40,610 nt of DNA from a virus. The stretch's first letter is position 1, and each line of letters starts with the position of its first letter. Location: positions 1 through 40,610 of the IMG/VR virus record IMGVR_UViG_3300023196_001923; one strand, given 5' to 3'. Below the pieces are notes generated by a model. It made no database searches, was not told the origin of the DNA, and worked only from the letters and a program-made list of their open reading frames with translations. Made by a program: the position numbers and the translations under genes. Below, one piece after another: positions 2,987 to 38,047 of this stretch.

Positions 2987-3346
2987 TCAATATGTCCACA
3001 TGACACAAGGGCTCTTAGCCTTGTCAATATCTACATGTATGAATGTTGCACTTACACCTATTCTATTAAAACCTAATTTAATTAAAATTTTAATAAGCTC
3101 GAATCTTTCTGAAGAAGTAGCACATGCAATATCTGCGGCTAAACCTTTTAAATGCGAAGACCCAGATGTTCCCCCAACTTTTTCATTATGAGCTTCTGTT
3201 CGGTAACCAGAGTTAATTACTATGGGTTTACCATAATTTTTACGAGCAACTTCCAGCATGCTTAGTAATTCCTCACTCATTAATTGGCCACTCCCTTGTA
3301 CGTCGGGGGAATCAAATTCTTCATAAGTAAAATACTTCATTCTCAT
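2987..3346 (-). CDS. Peptidase M15 family endolysin (D-Ala-D-Ala carboxypeptidase-like)
   Basis: This 119-residue zinc peptidase of the M15 (VanY/phage L-alanyl-D-glutamate or D-Ala-D-Ala) fold very probably cuts peptidoglycan cross-bridges at lysis. The visible motifs are INSGYRT, then SSHLKGLAAD with zinc ligands H65 and D72, and FIHVDID with ligand H104 and D106. The length is normal for single-domain phage M15_3 proteins. There is no signal peptide, so release should depend on the holin encoded at 33.7-34.1 kb. The start at 3346 forms an ATGA overlap with the stop of the preceding basic-protein gene. It is the last gene before the 2913-2938 terminator. Confidence 0.88.
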   Translation of the reverse strand: MRMKYFTYEEFDSPDVQGSGQLMSEELLSMLEVARKNYGKPIVINSGYRTEAHNEKVGGTSGSSHLKGLAADIACATSSERFELIKILIKLGFNRIGVSATFIHVDIDKAKSPCVMWTY

Positions 3347-3603
3347 TTCTTTTTCTTCCTTTTTATATTAGATGCTCTCTTACCCATTCCAACTCTTTTC
3401 TTTTCAGCAACAGCTTTTTTCTTTTCTGACGGGGACATCTCGCTCCAGGTTTTTACAGTCTTACTGTTTATCCTTTTGCTTGGTCTACACTTTTTTGTTT
3501 TTTTATTTTTAGTAGATCCACAAGGATTGCCTTTTTCATCGGTCCATTTTTCTTTAAACCAGCGTTTAAGATTAGCTCCTTTTTGAGTTTTACGAACAGC
3601 CAT
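3343..3603 (-). CDS. Small lysine-rich protein (DUF5872-like)
   Basis: This very basic 86-residue protein starts MAVRKTQKGANLKRWFKEKW and contains NPCGSTKNKKTKKCRPSKR, WSEMSPSEKKKAVAEKKR and a C-terminal run of lysines. The Trp-containing start and the two cysteines in the CG...KC segment match the DUF5872 type of phage and large-virus proteins as I remember it. ATG 3603 is chosen over the longer ORF start at 3636 because it forms a TAATG overlap with the 46-residue gene upstream and gives the conserved N-terminus. The charge suggests nucleic-acid binding, but no experiment defines the role. Its stop overlaps the endolysin start (ATGA). Confidence 0.72.
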   Translation of the reverse strand: MAVRKTQKGANLKRWFKEKWTDEKGNPCGSTKNKKTKKCRPSKRINSKTVKTWSEMSPSEKKKAVAEKKRVGMGKRASNIKRKKKK

Positions 3604-3743
3604 TACTTTTTCTTTTTGCCTTTTGCTTTTCTGCATTTTGCTATTGCACCGCTTGCGTAAGCCGATGGAAATACCTTGTACTGCTTCTTTACTTTATGAT
3701 AGCATGCGTCTTTTAGTTCGAATGGTGACTTTGATGATTCCAT
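3603..3743 (-). CDS. 46-residue basic protein with a CYHKVKKQYKVFPSAYASG motif
   Basis: This short gene begins at ATG 3743, one base past the stop of the 3158-residue gene, and its TAA overlaps the next ATG (TAATG). The protein contains CYHKVKKQYKVFPSAYASG and then AIAKCRKAKG with a lysine tail. The block Cys-Tyr, Lys-Val, Tyr-Lys-Val-Phe-Pro-Ser-Ala-Tyr-Ala-Ser-Gly, Cys recurs in many aquatic phage and giant-virus proteins, so it is very probably real despite its size. The two cysteines and the basic character would suit a nucleic-acid or membrane-lipid contact, but the function is not known. Confidence 0.72.
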   Translation of the reverse strand: MESSKSPFELKDACYHKVKKQYKVFPSAYASGAIAKCRKAKGKKKK

Positions 3744-3744
3744 A

Positions 3745-6700
3745 TTAATCTTTTTTAATGTTATATTTTTTACCCATAGCTTCGTAGAAACCTTTTAATT
3801 CTTTAGTTGGTGTTTGGAAAAACACTCTTCTGTCTTCGGGTTTAAGACTGTCAATTACCTGTTGTTTAAACTTTTCTTGTTTTTCTCTGTTTATTCTTCT
3901 TGTCTCCTTGGCTTTCACTTTTCCTTGTTCTTTCCTAACGCCTTTGGCTTCTGTTTTAATTAAATCAAACTCTTCGTTTTTAGCATTAACATCCCACGTT
4001 CTCCAGCCTAAACCTAACGCCATTCTTTGGAAGGCGGTATTCCTTTTATCAAAAGCCTCTGTAATAGCCTGTGTTTCCATTATCGCTCTATCAAGCGGCA
4101 CATTTAATGTGGCTGATGCAACATTACCAATAATACTATATGTTGGCGAAAGATTAAACTTACCGTCCATCGTAACGTCCCAAGGATGCTTAGCTATAAC
4201 ATCTTTGTCAAATTTATACGTTTGAATGCCAGAGTATATTTTTCTAAGCTTAGATCCTATTGGGGGCGCTATGTTTGCGGCCTCTATGATAGTATATGTA
4301 TGATCTGCTTTGTATCCTTTTTTATCTTGCTCTAAGAACTTTAATATAGTATTTTTTACAGTAGACACTACAGCTCCATATATACCAGTACCGCGCAATA
4401 TTGTATCGGTCATACCGTTTAACATACGTGTAAGCTTCTTGTCTTGTGTAGCTTCTCTTTCTTCTTCTGTTTCCTCTTCATCATCAAACCCAGGTATTAA
4501 AGCAAATGCTGCGTTTTGCAATGCTGAGAATATTATATTTTGCACGGCGCCATAATAAACAATCTTAGATATATTTGACTTAGCATCTCCACGGCCATTT
4601 ACAAGGTCCTGAGCGGCTTTTTTCATCAATCTAGTGTATTGCATCGGCGTGTTTTGGAAAGACAATATAAGACGCCCCGCAACGCTTCGCTGTTGTTGTG
4701 ATACCAATGCCGGATCCCCTGATTGCTGTGACTCGTCTGATATTTTGCTAAAGTCTAAAAACGCTTTTGCCTCAGCATCTTCTTGAGACATACCTTCTTT
4801 TAAATAAGTATTAACTCTGTTGCGATAAAATGTAGCGCCACCTGCTGCAATTGCAAAACTATCCGCAATTTGCGTTGGCGTAAATCCTATTTTTAATAAA
4901 TAAGAAACAGCAGCGCTAGCCTTGTCCTTTGCGTTTTTAGCGGCGTTAGCAATCTCTTGCTCTTGTACATCAGATTTTAAACCTCCCCTACGTTGTTTTA
5001 ATTTATCGGAATTAAACAGCATAGCAAAGTCTTTCCAGTATTGAGGTTGATTAGCAAACGCTAAACCTGCTTTTAAAGGATTATTGTCGCCCCAATTAAT
5101 AAAGTTAATTGAAGATATAGTTTGCAATAAGGCTGACCTTCTGTTAAAAAACATTATAGTACCAACAGAATTGTTAACCCAATTGTTCCACGCATTAGTA
5201 ATCTTGTTAGCGCCTGAAGTACGGTTTGTGCCGTTTTTCATTGCAAATAAAGAATCCTCAATACCCTCTCTTAGGTTTGTTCCATATACAGCTTCTATTT
5301 TATTTAAATTCTTTTCGCTAAATATAATTTCGGCGTTTTCAATAAACTCCGCTAGATATTCTTTTCTATTTACTTTTTCTGTTAAACTCTGCAAATCACT
5401 AAGCACAGTCTTAGCATCCCAAAATTCACCTGGCTCAGTCCATTTATCTTTCTTTGACACAGCTAATAATCCGTCTGCATAACCCGATAGGTCCGCGTCA
5501 TTCCTTACAAGTTTTACTAGTCTAGCTTGATCTCTTTTAGATATACCAGGTATTTCGTAACCAGCTTTGTCCCAAAGATAAACTCTAATAGCAGAATCAT
5601 ATGTATAATCCCCTTCCGGTACAAGTTTATTAATAATTCTTCTAACTGGTTTAAACATTTTATTTAAAGCCCTAGTGTCATTCTTAATTGTTTGACGAGC
5701 TCTTTCCATTGCTGCAACACCCTGAAAATAAGGATCCATTAAATTTTGCTCAAAGAAAGCTTGATCAGCTTCGCCTTGTTTTCCTTTGCCAGCAAATACG
5801 TATTGTGTTAAACCTCTAAAGTCTTCTGCGCTTGGCGGAATAAAGAATTTAAATCTACCTTTTGTTTTACCTCTTCTTCTGGCAACTGCTGCAGAAAATT
5901 CTTTAAAGTCTTCAACGCCCTTTTGGCGTTCAATCATTTTATTAAAGTCTACGTCTAAGCTAATACTGTGTTTAACTCTAGCTTGCTGAACTTTGCCTTT
6001 AACATCAAAAACATTAAGCACATCTTTGACGGCTTTAACGTTACCCATGTGATCGTCTACAAAGTAGAAGTCGTTGTATCCATCGGCAACCTTTCCAACC
6101 ATCCATGCCGCTTTAGCCGCTGGTGCTCCATTAGCTAATCCAGTTATATTTTCAAGTGGAATTTCTAAGCCTATACCTTTTAAAAATTTATATATAGCCG
6201 GAGCTGAGTCAGCTGGTCTTGCTGTTAATACAAATATATTTTTATTACCAAATTTTTCTATAGCTTTTTTAAGCCTTGGGGCTAATGGCCCCGGTGTTCC
6301 TTTAACAACTTTGCTAAATTCACTAAAATTAAATTCAGCGCCTTCATTAGCCAATGTTTCACCTTGTTTAGCAAACTCGGCTGGCGTTATTCTATAAGTC
6401 TTACCATCTTTAGTCACTATAACCTGACTTTTACTGAATGCCAGTGTGTCATCAAAATCATATACGCTAATGCCTTTAGGTGTAATTGAATACTTGCCCT
6501 TGCGTGCGTTAGCCATTGCTTTATCAACTGTTCTTTTTTCTTCAGTTTCCTGTGTAGCGTCTGCTTTAATTACAGGGTTTTTGCCCTTCTCGTTAAAGTA
6601 TTGTTCATACTGTTCTCCTACGGTTTCCGTGCCGTCGTAGCTAACCATAGCGTATGGCATGCGTCCTCTTGTAAATAAATTATAATATCTATTGTGCCAA

Positions 6701-9700
6701 GCCGTTTCACCCGGAACATAATTAGCGGTGGTTATAGCGCCGTATCCAGCCTTGTCTAACACCTTATCCATTTCTTTAACTGGAATAATAGTTACTCTGT
6801 AATCATTCCATAAAGCTTCCATGTTGTGTTCCGTGTTGCCGTTTACATAGTAATCGTACATATAAGCTAAAACAACTCTGGCTGGTATCGCATGCTCAAA
6901 CCTAAAGTCTGAAGGAGTATCTGATTTTATAACAGTAGACTTACCCCAAACCCTGGCTGATGCTCTTAACGCATTCCCCGTGCCGTTGTTCATGGTAGAG
7001 AGTAATGCCAGCGCTACATTAGGATCTAAATCTTGCTTTGCAAAGTTTTTAAAGAATGAAGTAACAAACTTCTGAGCGGCTTTGTAATTTACTTCATCAG
7101 GTTTATAGTTTTCCCTGAGCATGCCTTTTGACACGTTAGTTACAGGGCTATATTTTCTAGCAACCGATGTTCCGTCTGTAAAAAATATTTTTTTGTTTTC
7201 TATTTTATCAATCTTTTTGCCATCTAAATTTAATTTATTATACAAGCTTTGCAGTAAATCCTCCGCTCCACTAAATAAATCGGCTCCTGGTTTTGTTATG
7301 GGGCTTCCGTCTTTTCTAATACCGGGTACTAACTTTTGAGTTTTTAAATCAAACTTAAATAACCCTATTGAAGCTGATGAACTAAACGAACTATTTGCAA
7401 AAGCCACGATCATCTGTAGACCTTCGTCAATGCCGTATTCGTCGATTATCATTTGCATGCTTTCAATTGCGGCCGCCCTAGCAAGCATAATAGTATCTTT
7501 ATCTCTAAAAACTTCTGAAGCATTCATTGGCGCTCCAACTAATTTTTGTAAAGCTAAAGCCTCGTCTGATTGATTAGATATTTCATCAAGTATTTGTTTG
7601 AATACTGGAACGGGTACGCTTTCAGCTGCTTTATTAACAGGTTTAAGTCTGTTCGCGAACTGTTCAGCTACGCCATCTATTATCTTAGGATCAAAATCAA
7701 GCGCTCCATACGTTGTTAAAAATACTTTCCTAATATTACCCTTACTAAGATTTTTAAGGCTCATTACACGATCAAAAAACAAATCTTTATTTAAGTCAAA
7801 TTTAAATCTTTCGGTAGGATTCATTCTGCCAACGGAAAATTTACCTCTACCTGTTTGTTTTTCAATTTCAACAATCTCAGCTTCTTTGGCTAAACCATTA
7901 TCTCTTAATACCTCGGGCAATACATCGAACGCGGCTTCTTCGGCAATAACATCTGCAAACGAAGTTTTACGCGCATTCCGAACATTAGTCGCTTTGTCGT
8001 TAGCTTTTAAGTACTCAGTACCTTCTTTTTTAACTTGGCCATCATATTTTCTTTTCTTAAACTTACGATTGTTCGCGTACTTATTTGCAATACGTTTACC
8101 CCTTATAGCGCCGCGATCAATAGCGTCGTTGTAAGCCTCAACCTCGGCAACTGACATGTAATTTGGTGATCCGTCCTCATTCGTAATCTCCTCCATTAAA
8201 AATGAAAACCTATCTGAAATAGTAGACTTAGGCATTATGCTATACACATTCTGAAAGTTTCTATCTACAAACGAATCATAGTTAACTCTTTTTTCTTTAT
8301 TGCCAACTTTTTCAGTATTGTCAAAGTTAGCGCCGCGATCCATAATACTTTTGAATAAGTTACCCAATTTATCACGCATTGCGTTAGCAAGCTCGGTTCT
8401 AAATTTTTTACTACCGATAGGCGCAGTAAACTTGGTTGTAGCATACGCTACTTTAACATTTTCTTTTACTTTCTTTTGAACTTGATCAGATATTGACACT
8501 GGGTTTCCTTCTTTATCAAGAACAATAACCTCATCGGTTATTTGTGGAAATTCTTTTTTGACTTCTTTAGCTTCCCGCTCTTTTCTTTTTAAAGTATCGT
8601 CAGCTTTTTCTTTGCCCACAAGTTCTCTTCTTCCTGGTTCTGAAGGAGCGGCTTCTACAGTAATTTCGCCAAAGCCTTTTGTTTTATTAATTACACCTTG
8701 AAGCCTATTGTCTATTTGGCCATATATATAACTACTAAGTTTTGTTCCACCCTCTGGGTTGTACGATTTTATTAAAAAGGGTATTCCGTCATCACCTTTT
8801 TCAATACCAGTAGCTGTTCTATTTATAACCTCATCTTTGAACTCATCGTATCTAGGGACTTGATCTCTGGATTTCATTCTGTATGCTACATATGAAGCAT
8901 ACTGCTCGCCCACCATAAAACCTATAACAAGCTTAGTATTTTCAGGAACAGCATCCCATTGCTCTTTTGTAAAATTAGGCTTGCCGTCTTCATTTATTCT
9001 TAAATCTAACCCATAGGATTCAGCTCCTGTATTAAATGCTTCATTACCTTTTTGAAACATTCTATTTTTGTCATCAGTATTAAAGTTGCTTGGTGCACTA
9101 AATGATGATTTACCTTTTAGCGAAGACTTTTTAGGTCCTTTTTTAACTTTCTTTTGTATACGTCTACCAATCTTACCTTCTCTAAAATCAGCATTACGGT
9201 TTAGCATGTAATTTAAAGCGCCTTCAGGTGTGGTAGTATTAATGCCATTAAAAAAACTTTCTTTAGATCTTTTGGCTTCTTGATTAAGTTCAGCATCAAA
9301 AGCATAAAAAGTTTCTTGAGCAACCTTCGTGTATTCGTCTTTATATGCAGCGCTTGTATCTTTCCATTCCTTACCAACATCTTCAGTAAGATCGCTTCTG
9401 TTTGCTAATATGCTTTTAACTTGCTCATCAACGCCAGCTAAATCAGGTTGTGATAGTCTAGCGTGCAGATTATCTGCATATTGTTTTTGTTTTTCAGGAG
9501 TGTCAAAAACACGATCATCAATAACGTGAGCTACCTCATGCACTACAGCTGTCGCCGCAAGAATATTCCCTTTTTTAATTTCAGCTTCAGCGCGTTCTTT
9601 ATTAAAAGTTAAATATTTGCCATCATATACATATCCGTTGCTATCTGGGTTTTCTAATGCTTCGTATATTTTATTTTTTTGATCCTCGGTTAAATCTGTG

Positions 9701-12700
9701 TCTTCCAGTTCTTTTTGCGCCTCTTTTTTATTAGAAGCCTGTATTATTTTTAAACCAGCATCATTTACTATTTTAGAAGACACCGTGCCTCTTGTATTTA
9801 AAGTAATAGCTTTTGCTGTATAAAACTGTGCATTCACCCCTTCTGCCGCATAGGCTTTTTCTTTTGCTGTTTTAGACAAAGGCTTGTTGTTCACGTCTAC
9901 TAAGCTTTCAACTTTTTTGACTATTTTAGGATTTGCTTTCGCTAGCTTAACGTAGCTTAGCCTTTGCTCATTTCTAATTTCATTAATAATAAAAGCAAGC
10001 TTGTCCTTTCTATTTAAAGAACGATATTCATTTGCCTTATTAGTATCGGTTGTTTCAAGCTTTTGCTTTATTCTTTTCCCGGATGGGCCTAGCGAGTTTT
10101 CAACGCGATCGTAATTAACATCTTTTTTAAGCTGATCTTGCTGCTTCTTAATAGTAGCTCTTCTAATGTCAAAATTTTCAGCCTGTTGGTTTTTACCTTC
10201 TTTCTTTAGTTTGGCTTTATAGTTATTTACTTTTTCTTCAGCAATTGTTGGAGTGTCTTCTGGTCTTACGCCAGCTTCAGACATTAACTCTTTTTCTAGT
10301 CTACCAAGACCAAGCAGTTTCTTTTGATTATCACCACCTAATGCTATTGCGTCAACCTCTAAGCCCGTAACAGCAAAGCCTTGTTCTTTCATTTTAGTAG
10401 CCAATTGCGCAATAAGTATATCTCGCGAGCTTGCGTCTGTGGATTCTTGTATACTTATACTTAAGTCTTGTATATCCCGGGTTAAACCATTAATGTCTTT
10501 TTGAAACTCTATGGTAGCTGCATTGTTCATTAGTGCAGAGTATGCAACACCCGGTGTAGACATGGTGCCCGATGTAATCAAAGCAGACACAGCGGTATCG
10601 TCCCATTGGCTAAAGTCCATATCTCTACCTAGTATAATGCCCTCGCTTAGTGCTGTGTCGCCAAAGTAAATAAGCTCTTCTTCAAGTATCTCACCCCCTA
10701 GTCTTTTTCCAAGCTCAAGGCCTGCCATGCCAAGCTTTTTTAAATTACTTTTATATAAAAAATTAGATATATTTATCCCGCTTTTTGAAAAGTCTTTAAT
10801 TGCTTTTAACGAGTTTGGAGCAGTACCTATAAATGATGTTACCGTACCTTCAATAAAACCAGTTGCCCACGCAGCATTCACAATTTGCTGATCCGTAAGA
10901 TCACCCATTGCTATTGTTTTATTAAGATCAAGTTCGTTTGATGTGTAAGTATTGTAATCTATTAAACCAGATTCATAGGCAACACGATTTAATTCTTTTT
11001 GATTCTTAGCGTCTTCTCCAAGTTTTTGAGCCATTACTAAGTCTCTATACTTTTGAGCCCCTGAGGATACCCCAAATTGAGTACCAACAGCTAGTTGAGT
11101 AGCTATTTTACCCATATTTAGCGCTGTACCAACTCCAGACGTTCCTATAGCTAATATAATATTAGGCGCTTGTTGCCCCAGCGTTCTTAAACCAAATAAA
11201 CCAGCCCTGCCTTGAGCCAATGCTTGATCATAGGTAAGCATGGTTTCAAATTGCTGATTTTTTCTCTGCAGTCTTTCCTGTTCTTTGACAGCATATTCAG
11301 ATCCGCCTAATACGGTTGGCACCGCAAGCGCTAATCCAGCAAAAGCATCATTAAGATCTTTAGCCAGTAATGCTCCTGTGTCATATTCTTTCATGCTAAG
11401 GTCAAATAGCTCCGCGGGTGTTATTTCTCTGTCCTGTCTTTTTTGTTGGAATTGAGCAATATCTTGCACATAATTTTGAGCACTTTGATTGTAATCAAAC
11501 TGGGCCGCCATAGTAGAATTTTGAAGCTTGTACCATTGGCCCATTGCTAAATTCACTTCTTGCTGCTCTTTCTCAGATAATCCTTTTTTGGTTTGATTTG
11601 CTGTAAATACGTATTGGCCATCAATATTGTCTACTTTAAATTCAACGTTTGGTGTGGATTTTGATATTCTTTCGGCTTCCCCAACAATAGTTTTAGCAAT
11701 ATGATCGCGAGTTTTAATTAACTCTTCTTTATATTCTTTTTTGCCTTCTTTATATAAATCAACATCTTCCTTGTCAAAACGGTAAGCGAGCTTAAGCAAA
11801 TTGGCTTTGCCTGATTCTTTCATCATAGCCTCCTGTATGGTTACCATGCGTGAGTCTAGCTCTGATGTCTTATAGTTTTCGTAACCTTGTTGGAATACAG
11901 ATTTTAATAACTCGGGCGTAAGCTTAGCTTTAATTTCTTCTGGTAAATTACTTTCCGGTGACAGTAGGTCAGTTTTGTATTTAATATATTCCTGGGGAGA
12001 CATTGTATATGACGTAGCCGTAGCCCCGTATGTAGTGTAGTTTACTTTACGCTTGTCTTTTCTGTTGTCTATATAGTTTTTAACAATATTAGCCTCATCT
12101 TCCGTAAACCCTAAACCTAATTTTGGATCACTTAATGTAAAAGCTAGCCTTTCTGAAAACTTACCGGAATCTAAGTAGCCTCTAGTCATATCTAGTTCGT
12201 CTACTTTTTTACCTTCCGCTTCTTTTCTTTTTACAACTTTACTCTCAAAAGCTTCATAAGCTTTAAAAGAATTGTTTTTAAGAATATCTTCGTCTTCGGG
12301 AGTTAAATTGTTATTGAAAAAATCAGCTATGCCATTTGCATTTAACCCTGATTTAATAGTTACGCCATCTTTTTGTACTTCAAAAAATGTTATAGGAATT
12401 GATGGAGACCTCGGGTCTACTGATTTTGATTGCGTAGTGGTTGTTTTAATTTTATATCCAGTACCATTTAATCCATAATTTAATTGATCAATATCGGCAG
12501 CCTCTGCTTCTTGATCAAACCTGTCTATAAAAGTATCTACAACTTGGGATCCATATTCTTCAGCTGTAAGCGTTTCAAATGAATTTTTTACTTGCTTAAT
12601 TTGGTTAGCCGTATTTAATCTTTCTTCATATGAAGATGGCTTTAAGTTTATATATTGGTCCTTTCCCGTTCTTGGGTCTTTGTATGCAACAGCGTTTCTA

Positions 12701-13221
12701 ACGTCTGTTTGTGTTATTTGAATAGGGTATTCTTTTTCTAAAATAGCCTCAACAGTCTCTTCTGTTTCCATTACTAAGCTAAATGGATCTTCTAGACTTG
12801 GCCCTTTTTCAGGTGAAAAAACAGCTTCTTTTTCTTGTTGTATTTCACGTTTTAATGTTGATATTTTTCTACCAACTGCTCGACCGCTACTTCCTGGTTT
12901 ACTTCTTGCGGATTTCTGCGCCAATAAAAGCTCTTCCAATCTGGATTCCATATCGATAAGACTTTCTGACTTCGGCACTTTCACTTCTACAGGCTCCTCC
13001 GTTTCCGCAGTTGCAATCTCGGACACTTTTTCCGGTGTTGTTACAGACACTACACCTGCATCCGTTGTTGCAGCGTCCGTTAGCTTTTCCACTTGCTCGT
13101 CTTCATTTACGAGGGTATAACCTGATAAAGAGGCATATTCAGGAACTGACATTCCATTCATTTTTGCCCACGAATTCATCTGTTCTACCGTAGCGGTATC
13201 TCCATTTGCATTTTTATACAT
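3745..13221 (-). CDS. Giant 3158-residue polyvalent virion protein (zincin, sigma-like segment, HAD phosphatase)
   Basis: This is the largest gene here, nearly a quarter of the window, and it lies where short-tailed phages encode their largest ejected internal protein. In order: an acidic linker-like N-terminus (1-170); charged helical regions; hydrophobic stretches near 628-645 and 685-700; a zinc-peptidase motif HEVAH (1228-1232) followed by the sort of helical segment that carries a third ligand; a sigma-region-2-like stretch YNPEGGTKLSSYIYGQIDNR from 1487; an EHAIPARVVLAYMYDYY block before the HAD domain; a HAD-type phosphatase with D2255/D2257 (DFDDTL), VLTARP, a candidate lysine in PAAKAAW and D2389/D2390 (FVDDH); and a C-terminal region with a hydrophobic segment around 2888-2912. 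This mosaic matches the polyvalent-protein theme of phage proteins delivered with DNA. No frameshift is seen. Delivery is inferred from position and domain mix. Confidence 0.85.
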   Translation of the reverse strand: MYKNANGDTATVEQMNSWAKMNGMSVPEYASLSGYTLVNEDEQVEKLTDAATTDAGVVSVTTPEKVSEIATAETEEPVEVKVPKSESLIDMESRLEELLLAQKSARSKPGSSGRAVGRKISTLKREIQQEKEAVFSPEKGPSLEDPFSLVMETEETVEAILEKEYPIQITQTDVRNAVAYKDPRTGKDQYINLKPSSYEERLNTANQIKQVKNSFETLTAEEYGSQVVDTFIDRFDQEAEAADIDQLNYGLNGTGYKIKTTTTQSKSVDPRSPSIPITFFEVQKDGVTIKSGLNANGIADFFNNNLTPEDEDILKNNSFKAYEAFESKVVKRKEAEGKKVDELDMTRGYLDSGKFSERLAFTLSDPKLGLGFTEDEANIVKNYIDNRKDKRKVNYTTYGATATSYTMSPQEYIKYKTDLLSPESNLPEEIKAKLTPELLKSVFQQGYENYKTSELDSRMVTIQEAMMKESGKANLLKLAYRFDKEDVDLYKEGKKEYKEELIKTRDHIAKTIVGEAERISKSTPNVEFKVDNIDGQYVFTANQTKKGLSEKEQQEVNLAMGQWYKLQNSTMAAQFDYNQSAQNYVQDIAQFQQKRQDREITPAELFDLSMKEYDTGALLAKDLNDAFAGLALAVPTVLGGSEYAVKEQERLQRKNQQFETMLTYDQALAQGRAGLFGLRTLGQQAPNIILAIGTSGVGTALNMGKIATQLAVGTQFGVSSGAQKYRDLVMAQKLGEDAKNQKELNRVAYESGLIDYNTYTSNELDLNKTIAMGDLTDQQIVNAAWATGFIEGTVTSFIGTAPNSLKAIKDFSKSGINISNFLYKSNLKKLGMAGLELGKRLGGEILEEELIYFGDTALSEGIILGRDMDFSQWDDTAVSALITSGTMSTPGVAYSALMNNAATIEFQKDINGLTRDIQDLSISIQESTDASSRDILIAQLATKMKEQGFAVTGLEVDAIALGGDNQKKLLGLGRLEKELMSEAGVRPEDTPTIAEEKVNNYKAKLKKEGKNQQAENFDIRRATIKKQQDQLKKDVNYDRVENSLGPSGKRIKQKLETTDTNKANEYRSLNRKDKLAFIINEIRNEQRLSYVKLAKANPKIVKKVESLVDVNNKPLSKTAKEKAYAAEGVNAQFYTAKAITLNTRGTVSSKIVNDAGLKIIQASNKKEAQKELEDTDLTEDQKNKIYEALENPDSNGYVYDGKYLTFNKERAEAEIKKGNILAATAVVHEVAHVIDDRVFDTPEKQKQYADNLHARLSQPDLAGVDEQVKSILANRSDLTEDVGKEWKDTSAAYKDEYTKVAQETFYAFDAELNQEAKRSKESFFNGINTTTPEGALNYMLNRNADFREGKIGRRIQKKVKKGPKKSSLKGKSSFSAPSNFNTDDKNRMFQKGNEAFNTGAESYGLDLRINEDGKPNFTKEQWDAVPENTKLVIGFMVGEQYASYVAYRMKSRDQVPRYDEFKDEVINRTATGIEKGDDGIPFLIKSYNPEGGTKLSSYIYGQIDNRLQGVINKTKGFGEITVEAAPSEPGRRELVGKEKADDTLKRKEREAKEVKKEFPQITDEVIVLDKEGNPVSISDQVQKKVKENVKVAYATTKFTAPIGSKKFRTELANAMRDKLGNLFKSIMDRGANFDNTEKVGNKEKRVNYDSFVDRNFQNVYSIMPKSTISDRFSFLMEEITNEDGSPNYMSVAEVEAYNDAIDRGAIRGKRIANKYANNRKFKKRKYDGQVKKEGTEYLKANDKATNVRNARKTSFADVIAEEAAFDVLPEVLRDNGLAKEAEIVEIEKQTGRGKFSVGRMNPTERFKFDLNKDLFFDRVMSLKNLSKGNIRKVFLTTYGALDFDPKIIDGVAEQFANRLKPVNKAAESVPVPVFKQILDEISNQSDEALALQKLVGAPMNASEVFRDKDTIMLARAAAIESMQMIIDEYGIDEGLQMIVAFANSSFSSSASIGLFKFDLKTQKLVPGIRKDGSPITKPGADLFSGAEDLLQSLYNKLNLDGKKIDKIENKKIFFTDGTSVARKYSPVTNVSKGMLRENYKPDEVNYKAAQKFVTSFFKNFAKQDLDPNVALALLSTMNNGTGNALRASARVWGKSTVIKSDTPSDFRFEHAIPARVVLAYMYDYYVNGNTEHNMEALWNDYRVTIIPVKEMDKVLDKAGYGAITTANYVPGETAWHNRYYNLFTRGRMPYAMVSYDGTETVGEQYEQYFNEKGKNPVIKADATQETEEKRTVDKAMANARKGKYSITPKGISVYDFDDTLAFSKSQVIVTKDGKTYRITPAEFAKQGETLANEGAEFNFSEFSKVVKGTPGPLAPRLKKAIEKFGNKNIFVLTARPADSAPAIYKFLKGIGLEIPLENITGLANGAPAAKAAWMVGKVADGYNDFYFVDDHMGNVKAVKDVLNVFDVKGKVQQARVKHSISLDVDFNKMIERQKGVEDFKEFSAAVARRRGKTKGRFKFFIPPSAEDFRGLTQYVFAGKGKQGEADQAFFEQNLMDPYFQGVAAMERARQTIKNDTRALNKMFKPVRRIINKLVPEGDYTYDSAIRVYLWDKAGYEIPGISKRDQARLVKLVRNDADLSGYADGLLAVSKKDKWTEPGEFWDAKTVLSDLQSLTEKVNRKEYLAEFIENAEIIFSEKNLNKIEAVYGTNLREGIEDSLFAMKNGTNRTSGANKITNAWNNWVNNSVGTIMFFNRRSALLQTISSINFINWGDNNPLKAGLAFANQPQYWKDFAMLFNSDKLKQRRGGLKSDVQEQEIANAAKNAKDKASAAVSYLLKIGFTPTQIADSFAIAAGGATFYRNRVNTYLKEGMSQEDAEAKAFLDFSKISDESQQSGDPALVSQQQRSVAGRLILSFQNTPMQYTRLMKKAAQDLVNGRGDAKSNISKIVYYGAVQNIIFSALQNAAFALIPGFDDEEETEEEREATQDKKLTRMLNGMTDTILRGTGIYGAVVSTVKNTILKFLEQDKKGYKADHTYTIIEAANIAPPIGSKLRKIYSGIQTYKFDKDVIAKHPWDVTMDGKFNLSPTYSIIGNVASATLNVPLDRAIMETQAITEAFDKRNTAFQRMALGLGWRTWDVNAKNEEFDLIKTEAKGVRKEQGKVKAKETRRINREKQEKFKQQVIDSLKPEDRRVFFQTPTKELKGFYEAMGKKYNIKKD

Positions 13222-30181: not shown

Positions 30182-32392
30182 TTATATTATTTTTGAACTA
30201 TGTCCTTTGTTATTGTACTTTTTAAAACTTAAAGTATGTGATGTTAATGTTCTTTCAGCCCTAGGGCTATATTTGTTTTTATTGCAAGCCATTATAGCTA
30301 AGCCTGAGCTAATAGAAGCATCAAACTTAGTTCTATTATTTATATTAAATTTACCCCAATCTTCTAGGGTTTTTTGAAAATACATTGTGCCATAAGATCC
30401 ATCTTTCATTAAACCAACATGGTCTTCTATGTAGGATTCAATAGCAGCCGCGTGTGCTTGTTTAATGTCTTCACTGGAGTTAGGCATTCCGCCTATTTCT
30501 CTTTCTGTAATTGAAAGCTTATTTAAAAGCTTATCCGGGCGATTCATTGAAAACCCTCTATAGCCTCTTCTTTTAAAGTAGTAAAGCAATCTTGGTTTAT
30601 TGTTTTCCGCCAGTATGGGCATGCCGTAAAATATGCAAGCCATCAATACGTCCTCAAAAAATATATCAGCCGTTTGTGGCCTTGATATATATTCTAAGAA
30701 AAAAGAATTAGCTGGAGCATCTTCCATACTAAACTTTGTTAAACCGTGAAGAGCACCCTTAGACCCTTTGCCGTCGGTTGTTCCTGATATGTCATAGCTA
30801 TCACAACCAAATGCACCCATGTGTTCATTACCTGGGTATTTAATGCCATTCTTTAATATTACACGGTTTTGTTGGTTTTTATTTGGTATCCAAGATATCA
30901 AAAACCTACCGTCTTTATTTGGCGCAAACATTACTTTTGTATCTTTAATTCCGTTTTCCCAATAAAAGCTTCCTTGTGTTACTATGCTTGTATTTCTTAA
31001 ATCTTCATTGTAATCAACTTGTTGATATATCTTAGTTAAATTAAACAAAGACTCCTTAGCTTCGTCTCTAAAAGCATGCTGCTCCGTTCTCGGAAATTGG
31101 CGATAGTATTCGTTTAAACCGTCCTGGTCATCTTTTAACCCATCAACTTCATTCTGCCAATGCTGTATTACCCCTTGATCTATTATATCATTGTGAGGTC
31201 CTTTAATTTCTTCATTGGGTGTGTCGAATACAGGTAAGCCATAAGAATCAATGAATCCTTCGTAGTTCCATTCCATAGGTATGAACAGACTATATAATCC
31301 CGAACTAGTCTGTCCGTTTCGGTTTCTTTTTGTAACGTCTGAGGCATTGTATAATTTTTTAAAATTAGCGCCACCTTTATCTAGTGAGTTGCTTGTGGAA
31401 CCCATCATACACTTACCTACAATTCTAGCTCCTAACCTTAAACAAGTTTTAGTAACCCTCCAATTATTTAATATATTATCTGGTCTTTCCCACTTGCCGG
31501 ATTCATCGTGCACTAAAAGTTTTAGCTTTTCACCGTCATAGCTATTATCCCCCGTGTTTTTCCAGTCGATAGTTGTATCTAATCCTTCAAGCTCTTCTGG
31601 GTTTTCCCCACTGTCAAGTTTCCTCCTGGTGAGCTTGGACGCTGGGATCCTGTAGGCGAGCTCGGTTTTTGGCCTGTCCATACCGTCTTGGATCGGTTTG
31701 AAAAAGAACGGGTAGTGGACCGATATTGGTACAACCTTATCTGTGAACATTTTCTTAGCATCGGCTCCAGACTTAGACAAAATACCGTACCGTGCATCTG
31801 ACGTAATTGTCGCCAAATTAACGGTTTCTGCTGAAGACATAAAAGAAAATCCGGAACGACGGTTTTTAAGGTAGCACATTCCGTAAGATCGTGGGTCGGC
31901 CTTGCAAGCTTCCCAGAATATAAAGAATAATCTGTTTGACTCCCTAAACTCTGCTGCCCCAACATCAATCTTGGAGTGCTGCAAGTACATATAGTGAGTA
32001 CCAGTGATGTAAGTAGCCAAACCCTTATTATAGAACCAAAACCCCTGCGATCTGCGATTAAATTCTTGATCAATGTAATCATAGTATTTATCTTTAAAAT
32101 ACTCGGGCTTTGTGTTCCACTCGAATACACTTTTTATTTTGCTGAGCTCTTTAGGGTACTCAAGCTTCTCCCATTTATCTTTTTTAGAAGCGTAAACGCT
32201 ATCTTCTTTTGGCAGCGCGATTTTTAAATTTTGTATTTCGTATATTTCACCTATCTGCCCCGTCTTGCTTATAACTACAACATCATACTCCTTGCTATAG
32301 CCGTACTTCCATTTTTTATAACGGTTATTTTTCTTAATTACGCTGGGCTTAATATAGTCCGGTAAAATTTTATATAAACTTTGCTCGTACAT
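30182..32392 (-). CDS. terL: Terminase large subunit
   Basis: This is the DNA-packaging motor ATPase with a C-terminal nuclease. An N-terminal region of about 165 residues precedes the ATPase core. The Walker A element is atypical, KNRRSGFSF (176-184), lacking the usual GKT/S. Walker B is KLLVHDES with D296 and E297. A coupling motif MGSTSNS follows in the middle of the protein. The nuclease half contains AFGCDSYDISGTTDGKGSK, whose aspartate pair fits an RNase-H-like active site, with later acidic residues in ADIFFEDVLMACIFYG and IESYIEDHVG. At 736 residues it is longer than T7/T4-type terminases but usual for crAss-like phages. The upstream gene stop overlaps this start (TAATG) and the portal follows at once. 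Confidence 0.9.
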   Translation of the reverse strand: MYEQSLYKILPDYIKPSVIKKNNRYKKWKYGYSKEYDVVVISKTGQIGEIYEIQNLKIALPKEDSVYASKKDKWEKLEYPKELSKIKSVFEWNTKPEYFKDKYYDYIDQEFNRRSQGFWFYNKGLATYITGTHYMYLQHSKIDVGAAEFRESNRLFFIFWEACKADPRSYGMCYLKNRRSGFSFMSSAETVNLATITSDARYGILSKSGADAKKMFTDKVVPISVHYPFFFKPIQDGMDRPKTELAYRIPASKLTRRKLDSGENPEELEGLDTTIDWKNTGDNSYDGEKLKLLVHDESGKWERPDNILNNWRVTKTCLRLGARIVGKCMMGSTSNSLDKGGANFKKLYNASDVTKRNRNGQTSSGLYSLFIPMEWNYEGFIDSYGLPVFDTPNEEIKGPHNDIIDQGVIQHWQNEVDGLKDDQDGLNEYYRQFPRTEQHAFRDEAKESLFNLTKIYQQVDYNEDLRNTSIVTQGSFYWENGIKDTKVMFAPNKDGRFLISWIPNKNQQNRVILKNGIKYPGNEHMGAFGCDSYDISGTTDGKGSKGALHGLTKFSMEDAPANSFFLEYISRPQTADIFFEDVLMACIFYGMPILAENNKPRLLYYFKRRGYRGFSMNRPDKLLNKLSITEREIGGMPNSSEDIKQAHAAAIESYIEDHVGLMKDGSYGTMYFQKTLEDWGKFNINNRTKFDASISSGLAIMACNKNKYSPRAERTLTSHTLSFKKYNNKGHSSKII

Positions 32393-33687: not shown

Positions 33688-34092
33688 TTATTGATCTTTA
33701 TTATTACTCATACTTTTAGCTTTTTCCCAAGATCTTCCTACAAAGTAAGCGCCATATACGGTTACTAGTAATGTTTGGAATATTGGTATGTATTCTTCAG
33801 CTATTTTAAACTGCCCTATGTTGCCATCAAAGAAAGCGCAAACAGTAAATATAACTGTTAGGTATATTAACACCATAGGCCGAATGTTTTTTGATAAAAA
33901 CGAATCAGACTTCATATCTGACTCCCACCTTGCTGTTACCTGCTCTTGAGCTTCTTTATCGGCTTTTTCTAGTATCTCAGTTATTAATCGCTGAGCTTCT
34001 AGCTTTTCTTCCTTGGTAGTTGTCAGGTTGTCTAAAACTTGGCCAACTTCTTTTATTACGTTACCAGTTAGCCACTCCCAAATTTTTTTCAT
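33688..34092 (-). CDS. Holin-like membrane protein (GTA_holin_3TM type)
   Basis: The 134-residue protein has an amphipathic N-terminal helical region with WEWLTGNVIKEVGQVLDNL and a charged coiled segment, then SFLSKNIRPMVLIYLTVIFT with a first membrane segment at about 73-89 and a second at about 101-118 (YIPIFQTLLVTVYGAYFVGR), ending SWEKAKSMSN. The (S/W)xLxxNIRP motif before the first membrane helix and a Gly-Arg-Ser-x-Glu-Lys end are the marks of the GTA_holin_3TM family as I know it. It would form the inner-membrane lesion that lets the endolysins out. It lies in the same transcript as the M15 peptidase but 30 kb away. Confidence 0.78.
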   Translation of the reverse strand: MKKIWEWLTGNVIKEVGQVLDNLTTTKEEKLEAQRLITEILEKADKEAQEQVTARWESDMKSDSFLSKNIRPMVLIYLTVIFTVCAFFDGNIGQFKIAEEYIPIFQTLLVTVYGAYFVGRSWEKAKSMSNNKDQ

Positions 34093-34102
34093 TATATTAG
34101 CA

Positions 34103-34609
34103 TTAATTTAAGCCTAATAATTTAGAAATCTTTCTTGCTTTTGTTTGCTCATAACCAGAACGTGGCTTATCTTTAGCTAATTGAGTAACAGTCATACCAC
34201 TTCCAAATCCTAGTTCTTGACCATCTGTAATATACCCTGGGCCTAAATATGTTCCTTCTTGTACGGTTACACCCGTCGTTGGAAAGTTTTCAGTAGGTTC
34301 TATTACATCAAAATTAAAAACTTCAGTTGCTCGTTTTTTAACATCTTTCATTAATTGCCTATTGCCAGCGGCGTTTAATTGCCCTCTTTCGTCTCTAAAT
34401 TGTTTTTCTAACTCTTTAGCGTAGCTAAGACTATCGGATGTTTTTTGATTACGTAAGTTAGTCGCTCTAGATCTAGCTGTTTCTAAAGCTGACACCGCGT
34501 GTGGCGTGTCTGGATCTCCATGCATGTGAGCTGCTGAACCTTCAGCCATATATCCTACAGCGTTACTTTTATGCTTCACGAAAGAAGCGGGGCTTTTTTT
34601 ATATGCCAT
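34103..34609 (-). CDS. Hypothetical protein, 168 residues
   Basis: Not recognised. The N-terminus MAYKKSPASFVKHKSNAVGY and the helical middle (ALETARSRATNLRNQKTSDS, AKELEKQFRDERGQLNAA) are basic and charged. The C-terminal part has Gly-rich beta-like segments (VTVQEGTYLGPGYITDG, GFGSGMTVTQLAKDK). No signal peptide, membrane segment or catalytic motif is evident. It sits between the holin and the DUF4846-like exported protein, so it may belong to the lysis or virion accessory set. The start is preceded by an A/T-rich leader with no Shine-Dalgarno sequence. Confidence 0.6.
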   Translation of the reverse strand: MAYKKSPASFVKHKSNAVGYMAEGSAAHMHGDPDTPHAVSALETARSRATNLRNQKTSDSLSYAKELEKQFRDERGQLNAAGNRQLMKDVKKRATEVFNFDVIEPTENFPTTGVTVQEGTYLGPGYITDGQELGFGSGMTVTQLAKDKPRSGYEQTKARKISKLLGLN

Positions 34610-34619
34610 TTTATTTTTT

Positions 34620-35354
34620 TTATTTTGTTTTAAATCTTTTTAAATTGTCTTCTGTGAAGCCAAATCCCGTATTGTGCACCTCGTTTATATCAAACCAAAC
34701 AGTATTACTTTTTGGGTTTAACAATATATGATGGTCTTGTGCTGGCATAAAACTTTGTGATAGCATTATTTTCTTATTTCCACATTCGTTTTCTATTATA
34801 TCTACAACAGTCACTGCGTGACCTGGAAACCCTCCTATGACAAATATATCGCCAGCAGATATATTATTTATGCTAACAGGTATTGTATCGTACTTATTTA
34901 TTGACCAAGTTCCAGCGTAAGACCAGATGATGACCATGTACTTATTAAAGCTTTTAAACGTATTGCTAATGTTTTTTTGTTTTAAAAACTCACTGTAGCT
35001 ATACTCTGTGCCGTCTGTAAATGTAAATACTATTTTATTTGTGTTGCCTTCGTTGAAATGATACCAGGCTCTAAAATACATAGCGGCATCGGCGCATTGA
35101 TGTAAATCTCTTTTGCCAATATTGTAATCAAACTTCGCGGCATAATGATTTCCTAGTCCGTATATAGTATATCCGTCATAGGTTTTTACTTCTTCTACTT
35201 TTATTTCTTTATTAATTAACCATTTATGGTAATCGGTTTTAGCTATTCTTTTGTAACTTTCCGGTATTTTAAAATAATTAGATATAGAAAGTTTATTTTG
35301 AGCATTAGTAATGCCCAAACAAAGAAAAGCTAAAATAAAAATTAGCTTTTTCAT
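34620..35354 (-). CDS. Exported DUF4846-like protein with Cys-His hydrolase features
   Basis: A clear Sec signal peptide (MKKLIFILAFLCLGITNAQ, likely cut after Gln19) directs this 244-residue protein to the periplasm. The mature part has DLHQCADAAMYFRAWYHF, VFTFTDGTEYSYSEF, KYMVIIWSYAGTWS, SAGDIFVIGGFPGHAVTVVD, and MLSQSFMPAQDHHILLNP. This order matches DUF4846 as I remember it, a family common in Bacteroidetes. C87 in the QCADAA helix and H179 in GFPGHAV sit where NlpC/P60- or CHAP-like hydrolases keep their Cys and His, so it may cut cell-wall peptides. The active-site assignment is inference. The leader AATTTAATTTAATAAA directly precedes the ATG. Confidence 0.72.
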   Translation of the reverse strand: MKKLIFILAFLCLGITNAQNKLSISNYFKIPESYKRIAKTDYHKWLINKEIKVEEVKTYDGYTIYGLGNHYAAKFDYNIGKRDLHQCADAAMYFRAWYHFNEGNTNKIVFTFTDGTEYSYSEFLKQKNISNTFKSFNKYMVIIWSYAGTWSINKYDTIPVSINNISAGDIFVIGGFPGHAVTVVDIIENECGNKKIMLSQSFMPAQDHHILLNPKSNTVWFDINEVHNTGFGFTEDNLKRFKTK

Positions 35355-35368
35355 TTTATTAAATTAAA

Positions 35369-36277
35369 TTATTTGTTTCTATTAAAAAACTTTAACATAT
35401 TAGTTGGTAACTGCGCTGTTGGTGGTTGCGATTGAATACCCGCCGGCTTTAACTCTATAGCTTTTTCGGGGCCTGCCGCTTTCGCTGCCTCTCTATATTG
35501 TTTTTGCAATGCTGGTAAATCCCCTACATATTGCATTAATCTATCGGCGTATAATCTTTTATCTTCGCTAACTCTTGGCGCGCCATAGAATCCTTCGTAT
35601 CCTTCACTTTCCCTTACAAATCGATCTGTTGCTTGCTCGTTCATACCCTCAAAATTCTTTGCATCTGAGTAATAGGTGGTCTTCTTCAGTCCCTCTGATG
35701 GTGTCCCTGGGTTATAAACACTTAAACCATCCCCTGTTTGAATTGTAGAGTGAGTTGTTGCTCCATATCCGTAGCCAACCCTAGTAACATCACCCTCTTC
35801 AGGTGAACTACCAGGGGCCCTTAGTTCAAAGCCAAGCTGACCTGCTACCGCATCAAATTGCTCATTTCCTGGTATAATTGGCATTTTATCACCGGGCTTA
35901 TATGTAACATTATTTATAGTAACCCCTTCTTCTCCAACTGAATTGGGCACTGTAACACCTGCTTCTCGCATTATGCCGCAAGCGTAAGTTGAGCAACCCG
36001 CTCCACCCATACCTTGCAACCACTCAAATGTTTTTTGCGGAACAACCCCGGCTCCTTTTACTCCGGCTCTTCCGTCATTCATACCATAGTCCACAGTATA
36101 GCTTCCACTGGCCGCACTTTCTGCTACTTCATCTATTCTAGATCGGATATCAGTAACTCTTTTCCTTTCAGCTTCTAATGCTTTACTTGCGTCTATACGT
36201 TTTTGACGTAACTCCTCAGCAGTAGCATTGCCGCTGCCAGAGGGCGGATCTGTTGGATCACCAAGTTTAAAGGCCAT
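35369..36277 (-). CDS. Cys-His cell-wall hydrolase-like protein (CHAP/NlpC-P60 type), 302 residues
   Basis: A helical N-terminal segment (about 20-58) is followed by a domain with FEWLQGMGGAGCSTYACGI (C95 and C100), AVAGQLGFELRAPGSSPEEG, DVTRVGYGYGATTHSTIQTG (H176) and GLSVYNPG. A Gly-Ala-Gly-Cys-Ser-x-Tyr helix start, then Gly-Asp-Val and a His strand, is the pattern of papain-like peptidoglycan amidases (CHAP/NlpC-P60). The end is Pro- and Ala-rich and looks disordered. There is no signal peptide, so it could be holin-released or virion-borne. The start at 36277 follows a typical A/T-rich leader. The fold is suggested by motif only, and C100 cannot be told apart from C95 as nucleophile. Confidence 0.55.
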   Translation of the reverse strand: MAFKLGDPTDPPSGSGNATAEELRQKRIDASKALEAERKRVTDIRSRIDEVAESAASGSYTVDYGMNDGRAGVKGAGVVPQKTFEWLQGMGGAGCSTYACGIMREAGVTVPNSVGEEGVTINNVTYKPGDKMPIIPGNEQFDAVAGQLGFELRAPGSSPEEGDVTRVGYGYGATTHSTIQTGDGLSVYNPGTPSEGLKKTTYYSDAKNFEGMNEQATDRFVRESEGYEGFYGAPRVSEDKRLYADRLMQYVGDLPALQKQYREAAKAAGPEKAIELKPAGIQSQPPTAQLPTNMLKFFNRNK

Positions 36278-36279
36278 AT

Positions 36280-36618
36280 TTATTTTTTAGTAAGTTTGAT
36301 TACCGTGTGTAAATCGCCGCTAAATTCGCATATTAAATTACCAGCAATTAATTTATATTTTATCACAACGTCGTATCCATTTCTATAATTATATAGTCGA
36401 GTTGTAAATTCATGATCTGTTTGTTTTAATATAGTTTCTTCTATATATAGATCTTCTTTAAAACTAAAGTTAAATACTTTTAAAACTGCATATTCACTTG
36501 CAATTATAGTTGTTGTAAAAGAAGAAGTTTCGCTTTTCCATTCGCCTTCAAATTGCTGTTGAGCATTCGATGTGGTTAAAGCAAAAATAAACAATAATGT
36601 AATTAATAATTTTTTCAT
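36280..36618 (-). CDS. Exported small beta-barrel-like protein, 112 residues
   Basis: A signal peptide of the flavobacterial kind (MKKLLITLLFIFALTTSNAQ) precedes QQFEGEWKSETSSFTTTIIA and alternating beta segments (YAVLKVFNFSFKEDLYIEET, HEFTTRLYNYRNGYDVVIK, KLIAGNLICEFSGDLHTVIK). Small exported proteins beginning xGxWxS with a run of short strands often form lipocalin-like barrels, but I cannot assign a ligand. It is a strong sign that the host exports proteins with a cut after Ala-Gln. It is separated from the next gene upstream by a 49-base AT-rich gap with a weak hairpin. Confidence 0.62.
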   Translation of the reverse strand: MKKLLITLLFIFALTTSNAQQQFEGEWKSETSSFTTTIIASEYAVLKVFNFSFKEDLYIEETILKQTDHEFTTRLYNYRNGYDVVIKYKLIAGNLICEFSGDLHTVIKLTKK

Positions 36619-36648
36619 AATATTAGATTTAATTTATATCTATATTAT
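36617..36648 (-). promoter_or_regulatory. AT-only hairpin at a translation start
   Basis: The first part TAATATTAGAT and the later ATCTATATTA are inverted repeats of about ten pairs with one bulged T and a short AT loop, placed exactly over the ATG of the small exported protein. It is weak because it has only two G-C pairs. It might tune access to the start codon, or it may be chance in AT-rich DNA. Confidence 0.25.
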
Positions 36649-36667
36649 TACACAAATTATTAACTTT

Positions 36668-37729
36668 TTAATTACCAGATCTTTCGTCTTTCTTTTTAGG
36701 CGTTGACATTAGATTTTTAATAGTGCTGTTTAAATTTGTATTTGTATTTAAATTATATTTACCACTTTTAACATCTCTATTAAAATCATCTTTCATAAAC
36801 CTTAAGTTATCTGCCGTATTTTGTCTTTTAGTTGCACTCTGGCTTTGATCAATATAATCTTGAACCATACGCGCATTAGCAAACGCGGCTTGATCACTTA
36901 TTACTGTTTTACCAGTTTTAGGGTGTTGTATAACAGGACGCGTGGATCTTAGGAATTTATCATTACGCATATCCGTTCTAGCTGTTTCAATTGCCGATTT
37001 TAAATTAGTTTCACTTCCAGTAGCCTTTGCAGATTGTAAATTTTCTGATATATTCGCAGAAACCTTAGCCCCTTGATTAGCCTCTTTTAATGTTTGTCTA
37101 ACACCAGTGTATCCAAACCTAGCGTCATTGTCCTGCTTATTTTTTAAATCTTGAGCCACGGTGTTTTGGCTTATATTAGAACCCATAGAAGACCCGCGAT
37201 TCCTCAAATCGTTTCTTTGCATTGGATCGTTGATTGTTGGATTTATATCAAACCGTGAGCTCAAGTATTTATAGCTAGAGTTGTCACCTTGGTCAGTAAA
37301 AGAAGGCTGTATAACACTATCGTCTTTTAGTGATTGAGCAAAAGCATCTTTTCCTCTATACCTAAACGTAGGTAGGTTTGTTGAGCTTGACTGGTTTTTA
37401 CCAAGTGGATCAGCTTTAATGCTTTCTACAGTTTTTTTAGCTTCGTATATTGTTTTATTAAGATCTCCTACATTTTTTATTGGTGCACCATAGTTTAAAC
37501 CAGATTGCGGCATTGAGCCATTGTTTGCCTTCATTTCTATAGGAGCACCGTACATTGTTGCAGGGCTATTGCTTTCAATAGCGGCTTGACGTTTTTTCTC
37601 GTACGCATTCAGCGTTCCGTCTTTGTCTAAGTCTCCTAGTAATTTTAATCCACTTCCTTCTTTTAATTTGTCGGACAGCTTCATAATAGGATTTCCATTA
37701 CCACGCCCTTCTTCTTGTGTATATGCCAT
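36668..37729 (-). CDS. Hypothetical virion-type protein with EF-hand loop, 353 residues
   Basis: Residues 33-44 (DLDKDGTLNAYE) are a perfect EF-hand loop with acidic or polar ligands at 1, 3, 5, 7, 9 and 12 and Gly at 6, followed by a basic helix KKRQAAIES. The rest is low-complexity, rich in Asn, Gln, Ser and Lys, with three SG/PAT-(M/L)NYGAPI-like short repeats (TMYGAPIEMK, LNYGAPIKNV) and many predicted disordered segments. A single loop probably binds calcium or acts as a structural turn. No enzyme motif is seen. It lies between the zincin-like gene and the exported protein genes. A virion or assembly role is only a guess. A/T-rich leader, no Shine-Dalgarno sequence. Confidence 0.6.
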   Translation of the reverse strand: MAYTQEEGRGNGNPIMKLSDKLKEGSGLKLLGDLDKDGTLNAYEKKRQAAIESNSPATMYGAPIEMKANNGSMPQSGLNYGAPIKNVGDLNKTIYEAKKTVESIKADPLGKNQSSSTNLPTFRYRGKDAFAQSLKDDSVIQPSFTDQGDNSSYKYLSSRFDINPTINDPMQRNDLRNRGSSMGSNISQNTVAQDLKNKQDNDARFGYTGVRQTLKEANQGAKVSANISENLQSAKATGSETNLKSAIETARTDMRNDKFLRSTRPVIQHPKTGKTVISDQAAFANARMVQDYIDQSQSATKRQNTADNLRFMKDDFNRDVKSGKYNLNTNTNLNSTIKNLMSTPKKKDERSGN

Positions 37730-37738
37730 TTTTTTATT

Positions 37739-38047
37739 TTATGCGTTTCTATATGCCTCTGCCTCCCAGGGCAATTTTTTATTTCCTTCCTGCATTTCTG
37801 ATCTTAAATATTTTTTACCTTTCCAGTAAACATATTTATCGTCATAATCAAGGTCGCCGCGTTTCATTTGATCAATGTGAATTTTCTCATGATCAATAAC
37901 ACCCTGCATTTGTGCAGCGCTTAAGTTTTCATCAATTATTATTGTACCATTATTGTTTGCTTTTCCAAGAACCCCATCCTCCATACTTACATTGTATATG
38001 GGAGTATTGTCCACCTTGTAAGGCGTGCTGTTCATTTTAAAAGCCAT
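37739..38047 (-). CDS. Minimal zinc-peptidase-like protein (HEKIH), 102 residues
   Basis: This short protein has a beta-like first half (YKVDNTPIYNVSMEDGVLGK, GTIIIDENLSAAQMQGVID) and then the zinc motif HEKIH (53-57) in a helix. A downstream LPWEAEAYRNA (E95/E97) could supply the third ligand, as in gluzincins. The region between them (MKRGDLDYDDKYVYWKGKKY) fits a compact metalloprotease core. At 102 residues it is among the smallest plausible zincins. Candidate jobs are processing of a virion protein or digestion of host protein; the gene lies in the virion/lysis accessory set. No signal peptide is present. Confidence 0.62.
   Translation of the reverse strand: MAFKMNSTPYKVDNTPIYNVSMEDGVLGKANNNGTIIIDENLSAAQMQGVIDHEKIHIDQMKRGDLDYDDKYVYWKGKKYLRSEMQEGNKKLPWEAEAYRNA

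Follow-up and report, generated by a model that had tools for sequence, protein, structure and literature searches.

The window, by which we mean the whole stretch of 40,610 bases analysed here, is a virus record carrying terminase, holin, portal, and virion protein genes, in agreement with the phage origin given in an earlier note on this DNA. Its annotated relatives by terminase are phages of Flavobacterium, Cellulophaga, Tenacibaculum, and Maribacter, together with one environmental genome (87 records in total), and a Bacteroidota host is therefore likely for the window phage. A very long ORF (3745–13221, minus strand; 3,158 aa) gave no noteworthy match to Pfam or PHROG families. The region under study is transcribed leftward, in the order 302-aa protein, DUF4846 protein, 168-aa ORF, holin, four small genes, and terminase, and its features, together with a distant endolysin candidate, are as follows.

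35369–36277, minus strand: 302-aa protein directly upstream of the DUF4846 gene, without family assignment; relatives retain it 5' of DUF4846
34620–35354, minus strand: DUF4846 protein of 244 aa, a predicted exported papain-like cysteine enzyme (PF16138, dN/dS, model)
35301–35354, minus strand: putative signal peptide, residues 1–18 (sequence and hydropathy)
35094–35096, minus strand: codon of C87, placed at the N-terminal end of helix 87–101 and predicted to be the nucleophile (25/25 covering rows; model)
34848–34853, minus strand: codons of G168–D169, the GD motif directly before strand 170–173 (26/26 rows)
34818–34820, minus strand: codon of H179, which begins strand 179–189 and is predicted to act as the base (26/26 rows, partly by construction; model)
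34103–34609, minus strand: 168-aa ORF between the DUF4846 and holin genes, missing there in 18 of 19 close relatives
33688–34092, minus strand: holin of 134 aa with two hydrophobic segments (phrog_3427, E = 1.7e-27; hydropathy)
30182–32392, minus strand: terminase large subunit, used as the synteny anchor (phrog_6681, E = 2.4e-159)
2987–3346, minus strand: canonical endolysin candidate, Peptidase_M15_3, 119 aa, with no signal peptide (Pfam and endolysin PHROG)

The DUF4846 ORF lies on the minus strand, which the earlier note had left unstated; the plus strand of 34620–35354 is crowded with stops. Comparison of the window copy with 10 of the 18 full-length close relatives gave dN/dS values of 0.064–0.100, indicating strong purifying selection, and the ORF is thus a real gene. 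In the Pfam search, residues 25–240 aligned with positions 2–239 of the 239-position DUF4846 profile (PF16138; E = 9.7e-51), and the score of 173 bits against a cut-off of 37 makes the protein a full-length family member. The N-terminus resembles a signal peptide (KK, a hydrophobic stretch, and then NAQ, as judged from sequence and hydropathy). The reading of the gene product as a DUF4846-like protein with features of export is thereby supported, with Sec-dependent export being the probable route; hydrophobic segments here and below were counted by a simple Kyte–Doolittle scan.

Relatives of the protein were sought in several collections. A first scan of IMG/VR returned 19, and a second, which used a degenerate pattern modelled on GGFPGHA, returned 61 stretches, all 61 of which encode DUF4846; at an identity level of 80%, all DUF4846 rows together make up 17 clusters. 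A tblastn search of the annotated phage collection detected no record encoding a relative. Close-relative scans of bacterial genome contigs gave no bacterial DUF4846 homologue, and the bacterial sample consequently consists of only four records obtained through the plasmid collection. Many of the records are near copies or fragments, and their numbers should not be read as numbers of independent events. A 26-row tree places 20 phage rows in a single group (support, 100/99), outside of which fall two lipoprotein-like proteins of other phage contigs and the four bacterial proteins, themselves a small sample (n = 4).

One alignment was made of the window protein with 15 of the 19 first-scan relatives (near copies and the partial L020 omitted), and another, of 22 rows, with 21 relatives picked across the 17 clusters. 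In the latter, C87 is present in all 21 covering rows, and G168, D169, H179, and D185 in all 22. With the four bacterial proteins added (26 rows), all 25 rows that cover C87 have it, and the GD motif, H179, and D185 are present in 26 of 26, so that the Cys of QCAD and the His of GH are common to phage rows and the bacterial members. The distant phage rows (from L040 on) were retrieved with the pattern encoding GGFPGHA, which includes H179 and fixes it there by construction; as the pattern does not include C87, only this residue of the pair is a free test in those rows. C87, D185, and the bacterial rows are not forced by the pattern. The positions given earlier for C87 and H179 were confirmed, and their conservation within the family, set in advance as a check, was found with the above reservation for H179. 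On strand 3, candidates for a third polar catalytic residue in the 26-row alignment are Q/E200, S201, and Q206.

The AlphaFold2 model of the protein is confident (pLDDT, 88.1; pTM, 0.84). In this model, C87 opens helix 87–101, the GD motif (residues 168–169) precedes strand 170–173, and H179 opens strand 179–189; the predicted order of helix-borne Cys, GD strand, and His strand is that of NlpC/P60 enzymes, and the suggestion that C87 and H179 stand in such an order is upheld by both the modelled secondary structure and the aligned rows. The GD motif is described as typical of the NlpC/P60 cluster, in which an Arg of the last strand pairs with the GD aspartate, in the passages concerned of PMC10318531; Arg240 of the present protein occurs in 20 of 22 rows and lies on model strand 238–241.

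The comparison with NlpC/P60 and CHAP structures that had been proposed as a check gave a divided outcome. The top VIA matches of the model were MepS/Spr (Z-scores, 6.8, 6.7, and 6.5), the CHAP lysin Ly7917 (6.7), and UfSP (6.0), followed by the phage endolysin PlyGRCS (5.8) and Tse1 (5.5), the best being MepS over 115 residues at 3.3 Å; a Z-score below 8 in this search may mean merely a common arrangement. All 19 listed matches with a Z-score of at least 5 are proteins that we take to be papain-like. Foldseek against the PDB and viral models returned no match to the model at E = 0.001, and searches of solved-structure sequences with the protein or its profile returned matches at chance level only. 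The likeness to NlpC/P60 (PF00877; MepS/Spr) resides in the arrangement of the three motifs and in the best VIA matches, whereas at the sequence level the PF00877 profile matched none of 27 records, the window included, and profile alignment to four E. coli NlpC/P60 members gave no significant result (probability, 0.7%, with 16 columns around the GD motif aligned). Taken as a prediction from the model, assignment of the protein to the papain-like fold class is supported.

This reading of DUF4846 is already in print: in its passages on the family, the paper by Ozhelvaci and Steczkiewicz (2023; PMC10318531) calls DUF4846 papain-like and possibly NlpC/P60-like. The enzyme idea of the earlier note is hence sound, but not new. 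In the literature searched, DUF4846 appeared only as that short prediction, and PF16138 was nowhere named in the text retrieved. The protein described there and the present one agree in belonging to the same family at full length and in the GD motif, Cys, and His. In contrast to those passages, which have no phage context, the family is found here in a phage lineage, coupled to a holin and with canonical endolysins alongside.

The gene order was compared over 22 loci (the 19 close relatives, L051, L075, and L097), in all of which DUF4846 lies 5' of the holin and terminase genes; a homologue of the 302-aa protein precedes it in all 21 loci that reach that far. In 18 of the 19 close relatives, the stop codon of DUF4846 overlaps the start codon of the holin gene by one base, reading TAATG in the eight junctions printed, and in the more distant L051 the two genes overlap by 8 bases. 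The intervening 168-aa ORF is confined to the window and L002, and another ORF occupies the same place in L075 and L097. In each of three other phages opened, the phrog_3427 holin family adjoins an annotated endolysin or M15 peptidase; two of these cassettes, in Vibrio phage 1.238.A and Myoviridae sp. MW202879, resemble the present locus in that a lytic enzyme is encoded immediately next to a holin of this family, the partner there being a small annotated endolysin or M15 peptidase and here the exported-looking DUF4846 protein. The coupling of DUF4846 to a holin is new here. It fits the earlier proposal that the protein may help lysis.

Some further features of the neighbourhood may be recorded. 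The 302-aa protein evolves faster (42–88% among relatives other than L002) and has an invariant pair of cysteines, C95 and C100. It was considered by eye as NlpC-like on account of a Cys-rich motif and then dropped; the model is poor (pLDDT, 45.6), and neither this protein nor three homologues matched any Pfam family, for which reasons no fold is claimed for it. A second exported-looking protein of 112 aa (36280–36618, minus strand) is patchy among the relatives. Several neighbouring genes within 34103–38047 (minus strand) start with MA(Y/F)(K/T), which may be a sorting signal shared by their products.

The M15 protein of the window, which matches an endolysin PHROG at 1.2e-30, is encoded about 31 kb downstream of DUF4846. 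In a relative (L006), an Amidase_2 gene (43690–44058) lies at about the same distance from DUF4846 (11959–12606) as M15 does in the window, which makes the endolysin place look exchangeable and suggests exchange of the main endolysin. In 27 records, each searched for six lysin families, the matches were Peptidase_M15_3 (four), Peptidase_M15_4 (two), Amidase_2 (seven), Amidase_3 (one), GH108 (one), and NLPC_P60 (none); an M15 or Amidase_2 match was present in 10 of the 23 DUF4846 records searched, many of which are fragments. With an M15 endolysin already encoded in the window, a lytic role of DUF4846 is not required, and the protein would be at most a second lytic enzyme. Five related phages were opened, and four of them have an annotated lytic enzyme in the region 5' of the terminase gene (an M15 peptidase, a D-Ala-D-Ala carboxypeptidase, a PF05838 endolysin, and an N-acetylmuramoyl-L-alanine amidase); in the fifth, Gundel_1, the endolysin is encoded elsewhere. 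The idea drawn from this comparison, that DUF4846 had replaced the endolysin, was rejected because the window itself encodes the M15 enzyme.

Based on the family membership, residue conservation, purifying selection, modelled fold class, gene order, and holin overlap described above, we propose that the DUF4846 protein may be a Sec-exported, papain-like cysteine enzyme of NlpC/P60 type, acting in a pair with the holin as an auxiliary exported lysin, a proposal that we would believe and doubt in equal measure. The protein would be made alongside the late structural genes, exported with removal of its signal peptide, and then kept waiting under restraint in the periplasm. There, H179 would activate C87, which would cut a bond in the stem peptides of peptidoglycan. 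Its full action would probably be released, or made useful, once the holin collapses the membrane, and the separate M15 endolysin (Amidase_2 in a relative) would attack the wall by its own route.

A precedent is provided by Lys44 of the Oenococcus phage fOg44, which, according to the passages concerned of PMC6116005, is exported by a signal peptide, has no activity as long as the membrane stays energised, and has its timing set by a holin; the present system is similar in the signal peptide on the enzyme and in the phage-encoded holin. The N-terminal export signal is present in the DUF4846 protein as a hydrophobic segment detected by hydropathy, and the pairing with a holin is found in 22 of 22 loci, with the overlap in 18 of 19 close relatives. 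Whereas an endolysin of the Lys44 type would be expected to be the only one of its phage, DUF4846 is accompanied by a second, unexported endolysin (the M15 candidate at 2987–3346), and the host here is probably Gram-negative. The enzyme family of Lys44 is unrelated to DUF4846. A literature search on exported phage lysins in Bacteroidetes found none matching all terms.

The family also occurs in other phage groups, where the neighbours differ. In a second group, a transmembrane protein of at most 119 aa, in which two to three segments are hydrophobic, is encoded directly 5' of DUF4846 in 22 records; these proteins form one homologous family, whose profile was built from six rows that are themselves among its 22 matches. 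Three of them matched no family when tested, and by shape only they are holin candidates. Further 5' in this group are exported lipoprotein-like small genes, with replication-type genes nearby. Both in the second group and in polymerase-linked lineages, DUF4846 lies among replication-type genes, outside any recognised late lysis module, and in nine DNA polymerase A-linked records, of which three are truncated 5', no member of the holin or the transmembrane family is seen beside it. The link to lysis is thus strong in the window lineage, which has the holin order, and only suggestive elsewhere.

Tiny lipoprotein-like ORFs near DUF4846 (L085, 3735–3920; L086, 6250–6495; L045, 5782–5946; L071, 10214–10372; L047, 3232–3387) have a common basic, Cys-bearing tail and are possibly spanin-like or wall-binding. 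In the large phage contig L054, a Tae4-like protein (2298–2975), picked by eye, lies near a lipoprotein-like DUF4846 (3256–4062). Among 136 DUF4846 neighbours, one matched Tae4 (2.5e-9); its equation with the 302-aa gene of the window type was rejected, three such proteins tested alone having matched nothing.

The early-type neighbours in these other phages (replication initiation and DNA polymerase A) bring forward an alternative, namely that an exported papain-like enzyme of the wall or envelope modifies the host in the course of infection and not at lysis, for example by trimming stem peptides so as to block superinfection, ease the passage of particles or DNA, or stop wall repair. Immediate Sec export would carry the enzyme to the wall before holin triggering, and a separate canonical endolysin is encoded in the window and in others; however, the window lineage is locked in the holin–terminase order in every locus compared, with the holin start overlapped in nearly all close relatives, and we regard host alteration as unlikely, although worth keeping in view.

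Alternatively, the papain-like enzyme might act on a periplasmic substrate other than the wall, by cleavage of a protein or a lipoprotein or by acyl transfer. The papain-like class includes proteases, deubiquitinases, and acyltransferases, and UfSP, staphopain, and IdeS appear in the VIA list at Z-scores of 5–6; in three annotated records opened, the bacterial DUF4846 genes have no evident wall-related context. The GD motif and the top VIA matches nevertheless indicate the cluster of wall enzymes, and coupling to a holin also speaks against such a substrate, which we consider improbable. That DUF4846 is the main endolysin, with the small M15 protein serving another purpose such as virion entry, appears very improbable: DUF4846 and not M15 sits with the holin in all 22 loci, and M15 is replaceable in view of the Amidase_2 relative, but an M15_3 protein of such size matches an endolysin PHROG with high significance, and other phages encode, next to a holin of this family, a small enzyme with an endolysin or M15 peptidase annotation.

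Returning to the auxiliary lysin, a wider and distinctly more tentative extension, which we hold to be possible but doubtful, is that Bacteroidota phages employ a two-enzyme lysis, in which an exported DUF4846 protein, translationally coupled to the holin, would prepare the wall from its periplasmic side, and an exchangeable, unexported M15 or Amidase_2 enzyme would finish it; DUF4846 would then constitute a new phage lysis family, with its own lineage across phage groups. The coupling to the holin offers the DUF4846 family a function open to testing, and suggests a design of lysis in Bacteroidota phages that involves two wall enzymes, only one of them exported. Should the enzyme prove active, it would add a new class to the exported phage lysins that act on Gram-negative hosts.
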